NCBI RefSeq assembly: GCF_013371495.1
Contig: NZ_JABWTA010000001.1
Location: 806,001-870,000, forward strand
DNA length: 64,000 bases
Origin: Altererythrobacter lutimaris
Lineage (GTDB): Bacteria > Pseudomonadota > Alphaproteobacteria > Sphingomonadales > Sphingomonadaceae
Reading direction: 5' to 3'
In this document: one piece after another, positions 46,252 to 48,897 of the stretch
Position numbering within the stretch: position 1 is the stretch's first letter
How the letters are laid out: each line of letters opens with the position of its first letter
Made by a program: the position numbers and the translations under genes
Notes under the pieces: generated by a model
What the model was told of the DNA's origin: nothing
Seen by the model: only the letters and a program-made list of their open reading frames with translations
Database searches by the model: none

Positions 46252-47052
46252 ATGGCCAGCGCGCCGCAGATGAACTTGCCACTTTTCTACAAAGACTTGC
46301 TTCCGCTTAACAGCCGCGACCACAAATCGTGGAAGTGCAAGACCTTTGATAGCGCCGCCTTTATTGCGGAAACCCACGCAGTACCCGTCACGATCGACGA
46401 ATTCGTCGATGCTCAGCGTAGTTATCCGATCGTCTTCACTGCGGGCGAAAACCCGCTGCCGATCGCGATGATGGGCATGAACGAAGGCGTGAATGTCTTC
46501 ATTGATGACGAAGGGAAATTCATCGAGCAGGTCTACATTCCTGCCTATGCTCGCCGTTATCCGTTTATCCTCGCTCGCCTGCGCCAAGACAGCGAAGACA
46601 TGTCACTTTGCTTTGATCCGGCTTCGGAAGTCGTTGGCGATTTCAAAGACGGTCAGGAATTGTTTGATAGCGAAGGCCAACCAAGCGAATACACCAAGGG
46701 CGTGCTCGATTTCTGCGAGAAGTTCGAGCAAGCCGGTCAGCGCACCAAGGCTTTCATGGAAGAGCTTGAGAAGCGCGAACTGCTGATGGACGGTGAGATC
46801 GCCATTACGCAAAATGATGATAAGGATAAGCCTTTCATTTATCGCGGCTTCCGAATGGTTGACGAGAAGAAGCTCGCGGCACTGCCCGACGACCAGATCC
46901 TCGAGCTGCACAAAAATGGCATGCTGGTACTTATCCATGCACACCTCTTCTCGCTCAATCTGATGCGTTCCGTGTTCGGTCGCCAGGTCCAGCAAGGCAA
47001 GATGCCGAAGCCGGATGCAGCCACACAAAACGCAAACGCGTCGGCGAACTGA
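46252..47052 (+). CDS. SapC family protein
   Basis: A 266-residue member of the SapC family, named after a Campylobacter S-layer-related gene. Family features: N-terminal LLPLNSRDHKSWKCKTFDS, then YPIVFTAGENPLPIAMMGMNEGVNVFI, and IPAYARRYPFILAR. No signal peptide. The role is not established in alphaproteobacteria. It is followed by the candidate small RNA region. Confidence 0.88.
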   Translation: MASAPQMNLPLFYKDLLPLNSRDHKSWKCKTFDSAAFIAETHAVPVTIDEFVDAQRSYPIVFTAGENPLPIAMMGMNEGVNVFIDDEGKFIEQVYIPAYARRYPFILARLRQDSEDMSLCFDPASEVVGDFKDGQELFDSEGQPSEYTKGVLDFCEKFEQAGQRTKAFMEELEKRELLMDGEIAITQNDDKDKPFIYRGFRMVDEKKLAALPDDQILELHKNGMLVLIHAHLFSLNLMRSVFGRQVQQGKMPKPDAATQNANASAN

Positions 47053-47076
47053 GCTCTTTAAAAGATATTGAGGCTG

Positions 47077-47101
47077 GCGAAGGGGCTTGAATGCCCCTCG
47101 C
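47077..47101 (+). terminator. stem-loop after sapC
   Basis: AGGGGC (47081-47086) pairs with GCCCCT (47093-47098), extended by GCG/CGC past one unpaired A; loop TTGAAT. The tail is not T-rich. It could stop or protect the sapC mRNA; its loop coincides with a minus 35-like element of the small RNA candidate. Confidence 0.5.
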
Positions 47102-47115
47102 TGGCTGATTATCTT
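47087..47115 (+). promoter_or_regulatory. sigma70-like promoter of small RNA candidate
   Basis: TTGAAT (47087-47092), a 17-base spacer, then TATCTT (47110-47115). Both hexamers match four of six consensus positions. Transcription would begin near 47122, just upstream of the first stem of the downstream structured element. Confidence 0.45.
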
Positions 47116-47121
47116 ACAAGT

Positions 47122-47227
47122 ATTCGGGCGCGACTTCCCTCATAGTCTGCCCGGATTATGCGCTCTTTGAGCGCATATCCTCCCTGAACCTTGGCCACCT
47201 CGTGCATATTGCACGGGGTGGTTTTTT
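47122..47227 (+). ncRNA. candidate small RNA with C-rich anti-SD loops
   Basis: About 106 nt between sapC and the convergent amidohydrolase gene. Hairpin A: CGGGC (125-129) with GCCCG (149-153), inner stem GACT/AGTC, loop TCCCTCAT. Hairpin B: 9-bp perfect stem TATGCGCTC/GAGCGCATA (47157-47177) with a TTT loop. Then an unpaired linker holding CCTCCCT (47179-47185), and a terminator hairpin with T6. The two C-rich stretches could pair with Shine-Dalgarno sequences, as in alphaproteobacterial sRNAs of the CCUCC type (for example the rhizobial alpha-r14/NfeR group). Identity with any family is not established. Confidence 0.55.
47195..47227 (+). terminator. strong Rho-independent terminator
   Basis: A 12-bp stem with one T.G wobble (47195-47206 with 47210-47221), loop TAT, followed directly by TTTTTT. 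It is oriented on the plus strand; the other strand has no T-run. It ends the small RNA candidate and any sapC readthrough. Confidence 0.85.
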
Positions 47228-47261
47228 ATGAGTTTCAAAGGCTTAAGGACTAAATCTCAGA

Positions 47262-48218
47262 CTATTCCGCAGCTTGAGCGAAAAATCCGCTACTCCCGAG
47301 CTGTGCGACCTCTCGGCCTAGAAGCCGAGCAAACTCAGAAACAAGATGCGCGACGCCTTTTACGCGATCAGTCGGCAAATTGAGGTCCCAATCCAGATAA
47401 ATCGAACGACACACTTCCAGCTGCAATGCGTGGATCGCCTGCCTCGGCATACCATGTGCATTGAGGACATATCCGCCGGAATAGGGTCTGTTATGCGTAA
47501 CAACACGGCCCCGCCCTTCGAGGAAGTTCTGTCCTGCGGCCACCAATGCCGAATCGCAAGATGCCCCGAAACGGTCGCCGATAACGAATTCTGCACCCCG
47601 CTCAGTGCCCGAATTGGATCGCAACGGAGGCATTGAATGCAAGTCAATCAGCAGTGCTGCGCCCCAACGATCACGAATTCGGGCGAGCTCTTTGCCAAGT
47701 GCCTGGTGATACGGGCGATGTATCGCATCAATCCGATGCTCAAGCTCGTCATTTGACAAGGGTGTACGCCAGATTTCCCCGTGGCCAGGCAGTCGGCGCG
47801 GAATAAGCCCCAAACCGCTACGCGCTCTACGATTGGCTAGCGAATGGCGCGCAGGACGCTGTCTCGCACCCTTCACCATCGACCAATCGACATCATCGCG
47901 AGAGCGATTCAAATCAAGCATAGCGCGCGGCGCATTGGCAACCAGCAGGCTCGCACCGAGATCATGAACAGCTTCGTATGCGATTTCATCCACATAGCGG
48001 TCTTCCAAGCGGTTCATCACCAGCTCTGGCGCTCGCATCTGTGCTAACAACTCAGCCGAATACGCTCTTCCGGCGTGCGGCACGGCGATAAGGACAGGGA
48101 TTTCCTCACCTGTCGGGGGAAACAGGGTAAACGGATCGCTGCACTCAGCCGCGGGCCAACCCCTTGCAGCCTGAAGCTTATCGCTCGAATCGCCTCCAGA
48201 ATTGTCCTGATTAGCCAT
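47262..48218 (-). CDS. N-formylglutamate amidohydrolase family protein
   Basis: A 318-residue zinc-dependent amidohydrolase related to HutG of histidine degradation. Typical segments: VLIAVPHAGRAYS near the N-terminus, DRYVDEI, LLIDLHSMPP and IGDRFGASCD. No other hut gene is nearby, so another N-formyl or related amide substrate is possible. Divergent from cpdR across 95 bases. Confidence 0.88.
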   Translation of the reverse strand: MANQDNSGGDSSDKLQAARGWPAAECSDPFTLFPPTGEEIPVLIAVPHAGRAYSAELLAQMRAPELVMNRLEDRYVDEIAYEAVHDLGASLLVANAPRAMLDLNRSRDDVDWSMVKGARQRPARHSLANRRARSGLGLIPRRLPGHGEIWRTPLSNDELEHRIDAIHRPYHQALGKELARIRDRWGAALLIDLHSMPPLRSNSGTERGAEFVIGDRFGASCDSALVAAGQNFLEGRGRVVTHNRPYSGGYVLNAHGMPRQAIHALQLEVCRSIYLDWDLNLPTDRVKGVAHLVSEFARLLGREVAQLGSSGFFAQAAE

Positions 48219-48822: not shown

Positions 48823-48897
48823 GGGCGTATAGCTCAGTGGTAGAGCACTGTGTTGACATCGCAGGGGTCGGGAGTTCAACTCTCTCTACGCCCACCA
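48823..48897 (+). tRNA. tRNA-Val (anticodon GAC)
   Basis: A 75-nt cloverleaf with a GGGCGTA/TACGCCC acceptor stem, D arm TAGCTCAGTGGTAGAGCA, anticodon stem CTGTG/CGCAG with loop TTGACAT (anticodon GAC), and T loop GTTCAAC. The discriminator is A and CCA is encoded. A terminator follows. Confidence 0.95.

Follow-up and report, generated by a model that had tools for sequence, protein, structure and literature searches.

The 64,000-nucleotide stretch of DNA analysed here (the window) contains a predicted small RNA with conserved structure at 47122-47227 on the forward strand, about 106 nt long, between a sapC-family gene and an N-formylglutamate amidohydrolase (FGase) gene. With a probability of roughly two in three, this is a trans-acting sRNA from an FGase-linked, divergent branch of the alphaR8 family (SuhB/MmgR/SisA), found in sphingomonads and Erythrobacteraceae; it would have its own RpoH (sigma32)-type promoter and terminator and two C-rich seeds, and would repress translation, probably with Hfq. 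The features referred to below are:

46252-47052, forward strand: sapC-family gene, 5' of the sRNA (domain match, PF07277)
47072-47106, forward strand: inverted repeat whose loop holds the -35 box (from the fold; 1 of 200 shuffles has as high a stem score)
47086-47091, forward strand: RpoH1-like -35 box, CTTGAA (conserved in upstream regions)
47108-47114, forward strand: -10 box, ATTATCT (consensus CCTATAT), 16 nt from CTTGAA (promoter scan)
47122-47227, forward strand: predicted sRNA, ~106 nt (5' end inferred from the -10 box; fold, conservation, covariation)
47122-47156, forward strand: hairpin 1, 5' of the RF00519-matched stretch (13 of 13 modelled pairs changed on both sides)
47136-47143, forward strand: hairpin-1 loop TCCCTCAT, candidate second seed (loop classes across relatives)
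47157-47177, forward strand: hairpin 2, 9 bp, perfect (hairpin before the core in 120 of 120 distinct sequences)
47178-47192, forward strand: single-stranded linker TCCTCCCTGAACCTT, 15 nt, with the alphaR8 core, candidate anti-Shine-Dalgarno seed (near-invariant in the alignment)
47193-47227, forward strand: rho-independent terminator, a 14 bp hairpin at 47193-47223 and a T-run to 47227 (terminator call, pairing)
47262-48218, reverse strand: FGase-family gene, convergent (PF05013, 219.5 bits)
48823-48894: tRNA gene (RF00005, 67.5 bits)

The minimum free energy (MFE) of 47122-47227 is -54.6 kcal/mol; shuffling the sequence 200 times gave -28.8 +/- 3.1 (z -8.35) and never so low a value. An RNA of this length with C-rich single strands, hairpins, a linker and a terminator was proposed in a preliminary description of the window, and all of these parts are present. 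In the MFE fold the linker between hairpin 2 and the terminator carries UCCUCCCUGAACCUU unpaired, and the first two bases of the core, UAUCCUCCCU, are paired; when the RNA is folded with slightly different ends, only five of nine linker bases are unpaired. An encoded peptide was considered and rejected: the nine-codon frame crosses hairpin 2, whose sequence varies between species (by eye). In some relatives (L019-L023, L027) the terminator loop has a run of C's, with CCCC in 9 of 134 sequences, possibly a third C-rich site.

The RNA is widely distributed among relatives. It was found by blastn in 19 of 61 genomes, its own counted, and a covariance model built from six sequences, with hairpin 1 and the terminator paired and hairpin 2 unpaired, matches 133 of 149 host-family genomes and 89 of 96 genera (E <= 0.01), a few of them weakly or partially. 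The same model matches 97 of 118 genomes in a sample of the order, 31 of the 97 being from the host family (counted from the rows); its best score outside the family is 47.2 bits. Named loci from these searches (L080-L159) are 80 of at least 119 matching stretches.

Conservation of the hairpins in relatives, on which the preliminary description had made its small RNA depend, is seen in an alignment of 63 sequences: 93.9% of cells are paired, and both partners vary in 21 of the 26 modelled pairs, figures that are biased towards the structure of the covariance model to which the alignment was fitted. (It omits L024, L026, L074, L076, L078, the second copies L029 and L038, and L080-L159.) For the terminator, 99.6% of cells are paired and 8 of 13 pairs have both-side changes. 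The covariation score, 0.528, compares with 0.181 for shuffled and at most 0.071 for slid alignments, and is above all 500 shuffles and all slides; the sequences are related and so not independent, and the shuffle comparisons therefore overstate significance. With MAFFT and RNAalifold, a first alignment yielded the terminator as the sole structure, and structure-guided alignments were used instead.

Individual folds agree with this picture. All 120 distinct sequences examined (L024, L026, L074 and L076-L079 omitted) have a hairpin of 5 bp or more immediately before the core, and its inner 5' arm takes 52 different forms. Among 134 distinct sequences (the same loci omitted, and those with short flanks), 126 have two hairpins and one terminator hairpin, and 100, the window's not among them, have at least seven of nine linker bases unpaired. 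Their hairpin-1 loops fall into two main classes, CCCTCAT (44) and CCCC..TTT (84), with six others. By eye, and among the matches listed, CCCC..TTT is the loop of named Sphingomonas, Sphingobium and Stakelama loci, and CCCTCAT that of Qipengyuania (L119, L129, L150) and of Erythrobacteraceae isolate L090, which is a repeat of L010, a locus of the window's own genus, with the same sequence.

Rfam at gathering score gives nothing at the place of the sRNA, the tRNA being the only match in the window. This includes 6S, earlier put forward as a family to check, which has no match at gathering score in the window; as identities, 6S, PyrR, anti-hemB and SorX are all absent or far below cut-off there. 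In a permissive scan the best match is RF00519 (suhB/mmgR = alphaR8), at 31.2 bits and E 1.3e-4, short of the gathering cut-off of 41. The element had been called undescribed, which holds to the extent that no Rfam family matches at threshold, but its nearest family is RF00519, and it appears to be a divergent branch of a family already described. Fifteen loci were scanned with RF00519, 14 of them matched by the covariance model and the other a second copy in the window's own genome (L001). Eight matched: L078 (66.8 bits), L001 (52.6) and L024 (42.2) above the cut-off, and L074 (38.1), L072 (37.4), L030 (35.9), L077 (32.4) and L059 (31.2) below it; up to E 0.05 there was no match in L010, L015, L020, L046, L069, L076 and L079. 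Nine further host-family places are matched by both the covariance model and RF00519, the latter at 30.2-34.4 bits. An RF00519 search of the own genome found L001 and did not list the window locus; cmscan on the stretch alone did see that locus, so the genome-wide search misses weak members.

According to the available part of PMC12559287, alphaR8 RNAs consist of a weak hairpin, an unpaired 10-mer UUUCCUCCCU and a terminator, and most species have one copy adjoining an FGase gene, a linkage reported for SisA. Here the core agrees with UUUCCUCCCU in nine of ten positions, the 3' end is a rho-independent terminator as in alphaR8, and the FGase gene is adjacent, as at the single-copy alphaR8 locus. 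At 20 order-level loci outside the host family, the core is UUUCCUCCCU in all 20 (by eye), FGase is within the stretch in 12, and many carry, on the 5' side of hairpin 2, a further hairpin whose loop is in most cases not C-rich (by eye). Because of the alphaR8 architecture, the 9/10 core, the bridging relatives above cut-off and the FGase neighbor, we conclude from sequence comparison that the RNA is a putative alphaR8 homolog at the FGase locus, from a divergent branch and formally short of the Rfam threshold. It shares with the alphaR8 RNAs (MmgR of Sinorhizobium, SisA-D of Caulobacter, RF00519) the hairpin, a C-rich core predicted to be mostly unpaired, the terminator and the adjoining FGase gene; unlike them, it falls below the Rfam cut-off, keeps GAACCUUGG 3' of the core among relatives and is preceded by a conserved RpoH1-like promoter. 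Compared with the RF00519 model, it has in addition a 5' hairpin, the loop of which (CCCUCAU or CCCC..UUU) is C-rich too.

The downstream gene, given simply as an amidohydrolase in the preliminary description, is more exactly an N-formylglutamate amidohydrolase (PF05013); against TIGR02017 (HutG) it scores 108.2 bits, not reaching the cut-off of 278.75. FGase is the convergent neighbor in 122 of 137 sRNA loci with enough flank, and Sphingobium accounts for 9 of the 12 named loci, among the matches listed, that lack it. (The neighbor counts, here and for sapC below, come from 148 loci, with at least two repeats within them: L038 = L015 and L090 = L010.) By inspection, the FGase side (47193-47262, reverse strand) has the terminator hairpin without a T-run; read-through from FGase could possibly yield a G-rich antisense transcript of the sRNA core that would act as a built-in sponge.

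The boxes on which the preliminary description based a sigma70-like promoter are there (TTGAAT at 47087-47092, a 17-base spacer, TATCTT at 47110-47115), and a promoter-like sequence belonging to the RNA itself stands; the sigma70 label seems the weaker part, the sequence fitting the S. meliloti RpoH1 consensus, CTTGAA-N15/16-CCTATAT as quoted in the accessible part of PMC4843759. The window promoter matches that consensus in 10 of 13 positions (CTTGAA, spacer 16, ATTATCT); counting the window's, 135 of the 145 distinct upstream regions reach 10 or more, as against 3.55 in shuffles (loci with a short 5' flank omitted). A simple sigma70 scan did not list the window promoter (0 found, 0.9 expected), and its significance comes from conservation across relatives. 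Spacers in the 140 regions scoring 9 or more are of 16 nt (73), 15 nt (57), 14 nt (6) and 17 nt (4). Two of 30 canonical SuhB loci score 10 or more; order-level relatives outside the host family score 10 or 11 in 8 of 20 cases, counted over a longer stretch with no shuffle comparison. Sphingomonadales have rpoH1 only, as far as the available text of PMC4843759 goes, and the own genome has one rpoH match over cut-off, at 368.7 bits.

Heat-shock genes and genome-wide searches add less. Host-family clpB promoters, read by eye, have CTTG, a 15-nt spacer and a (C/T)AT-like -10 in 19 of 25 cases; most of their -35 boxes end in TG or CG, not AA, and 4 of 25 score 10 or more (shuffles 1.2). In the own clpB and groES promoters the RpoH1 motif is not convincing, and groES is uninformative as a control. 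Many clpB promoters (L262-L286) have, by eye, CTTGTG, an internal GTTGCAA...GCAACAC inverted repeat, possibly a repressor site, and an ACCATAT-like -10. The exact pattern CTTGAA-N18-TATNT occurs in the own genome at the window locus only (control 4) and yields no regulon; CTTGNA-N15/16-CYTATNT gives two matches there (control 2), one within a coding frame. The other, an exact match to the RpoH1 promoter consensus, lies at C10:305526-305553 of the own genome (reverse strand, locus L258), upstream of a gene whose product resembles a LemA-family protein.

The alternative that survives best, though it seems rather unlikely, keeps the same alphaR8-type sRNA and gives it a housekeeping sigma70 promoter that merely resembles an RpoH one. 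RpoD would favor CTTGAC, whereas 137 of the 140 regions end the -35 box in A and none in C, which argues against sigma70, even if the scan's choice of best match favors A. The -10 pattern and the 15/16 spacing likewise match the quoted RpoH1 consensus (PMC4843759, available in part). TTG and TATNNT at 17 nt nevertheless fit sigma70 as well, and in alphaproteobacterial sigma70 promoters TTG and a spacing of 17 bp are retained (PMC8407463, in extract); SisA in Caulobacter is nearly constitutive (PMC12559287, likewise), and the host-family clpB promoters are not CTTGAA. RpoH appears to be the better reading of the promoter sequence, but is not proven.

The inverted repeat around the -35 box recurs in several lineages with arms that differ between species, and T-rich bases, the -10 included, lie 3' of its stem (by eye). 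Most simply, it is probably the sapC mRNA terminator, which would share sequence with the sRNA promoter; it may also have a regulatory role. At p <= 0.01 the -35 box is in such a loop at 12 of 19 loci of the blastn set (the window and 11 of 18 relatives), but at 6 of 46 and 9 of 76 in two other sets, and the hairpin was dropped as a required promoter feature. (These counts omit loci with a promoter score below 9, and the 76-locus set includes L090, the repeat of L010.) That this sequence resembles a sapC terminator, and that sapC lies upstream on the same strand in 113 of 132 sRNA loci with enough flank, could suggest a purely cis-acting element, the sapC 3' end with its terminator and hairpins and without a separate regulator. 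This is very improbable: the loop classes, linker and promoter are kept while the stem sequences change, and in the other 19 of 132 loci the sRNA match is present without a SapC hit upstream.

Least probable of all, at the edge of what need be considered, is an alpha-r14/NfeR or CcsR-type RNA: the window RNA does expose C-rich loops, and relative L069 has a sub-threshold RF02344 match over the RNA (32.8 bits, cut-off 58.8) without one to RF00519, but the earlier likening to alpha-r14/NfeR finds no RF02344 match in the window stretch 46900-47400 up to E = 5, the 15 scanned loci have eight RF00519 matches and one of RF02344, and the FGase synteny is that of alphaR8. CcsR1-4 have C-rich loops and an RpoH promoter. 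As presented in part of PMC8625941, these RNAs of Rhodobacter sphaeroides are induced by oxidative stress, and the window RNA would be like them in being stress-linked; unlike it, they are processed from the ccaF1 3' UTR. Window scans gave no CcsR-type Rfam match. GsrN of Caulobacter, as far as PMC5869019 is available, combines a stress sigma factor with a C-rich 5' loop as seed, as the window RNA may; unlike the latter, it has a sigma EcfG promoter and activates katG. The same partial source reports no apparent gsrN-like gene in Erythrobacter litoralis.

The alphaR8-branch RNA has a sibling. The second copy in the own genome, L001 (C10:1906719-1906796, reverse strand), is a canonical alphaR8/SuhB (RF00519, 52.6 bits), and 46 of 59 host-family genomes have an RF00519 copy over cut-off, with up to seven matches per genome. 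The 30 canonical copies examined mostly have GCCUUUCAGGCAUCCUCUCC(C/U)AA, and a conserved TTCGCACTTGCACAA-like block upstream. YGCR-N1/2-YGCR is found upstream of 28 of 30 canonical SuhB copies (shuffles 7.05) vs. 19 of 147 FGase-linked RNAs (16.05). YGCRNYGCR forms part of the PhaR/AniA motif of S. meliloti, and mmgR is repressed by PhaR (PMC12542648, from the part available). Reading the TTCGCACTTGCACAA block as a PhaR-like site is suggestive only, because the exact one-base spacing gives just 12 of 30 (shuffles 3.85).

In Sphingopyxis granuli TFA, SuhB is described in a review, available in part, as a 61-nt RNA that acts with Hfq on the thnR 5' UTR and its translation and is linked to PHB (PMC6563040). 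Since ncRNAs of the TFA genome were predicted with Infernal (PMC4741004, in extract), it is probably the canonical, over-threshold paralog, like L001. The window RNA resembles it as an alphaR8-type RNA of sphingomonads, action with Hfq on a 5' UTR being that of TFA SuhB (PMC6563040, as above), and differs in probably lying at a locus other than that of the canonical paralog, TFA SuhB being known here by description.

If the window RNA acts as proposed, transcription would start at the RpoH-type promoter and end at the terminator, and the linker UCCUCCCUGAAC and the hairpin-1 loop CCCUCAU would pair with G-rich ribosome-binding sites of mRNAs, blocking their translation, probably with Hfq. Pairing by the core is suggested by family analogy: as given in the available part of PMC12559287, SisA represses many mRNAs, likely via the 10-mer seed, and is helped by Hfq in pairing with CrfA. 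The hairpin-1 loop is a candidate second seed by analogy with the C-rich 5' loop of GsrN. A search of the own genome for the complement of the linker, with at most one mismatch, gave eight places including itself (control 5); none of the seven others precedes a long frame, so no target is named.

Among the leading matches of longer literature lists, no FGase-linked sphingomonad RNA was found described, nor the C-rich 5' hairpin of the FGase-linked RNA, nor an RpoH-type promoter for alphaR8; the published alphaR8 phylogeny may include the locus.

A broader proposal, for which we see even odds, is that an alphaR8 carbon-storage regulator has split in the host family into two differently wired siblings. 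Canonical SuhB, with its PhaR-like promoter, would respond to a PHB signal; the FGase-linked RNA, under a heat-shock sigma factor and with a second anti-Shine-Dalgarno seed loop switched between clades (CCCUCAU vs. CCCC..UUU), would bring repression of translation by this family into the heat-shock response. At some of these loci the -35 box would lie within the sapC terminator loop, one sequence both ending sapC and starting the sRNA.

Branch members scored inside the host family stay below the RF00519 cut-off, and because of this the RNA, present in 133 of 149 host-family genomes, is probably missed by annotation pipelines that rely on Rfam. Should the RpoH reading of the promoter be right, a family of anti-Shine-Dalgarno repressors so far associated with carbon storage and starvation would be tied to the heat-shock response. 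Canonical SuhB and the FGase-linked RNA would together offer a naturally occurring pair in which to study why sRNA duplicates are retained in bacteria.
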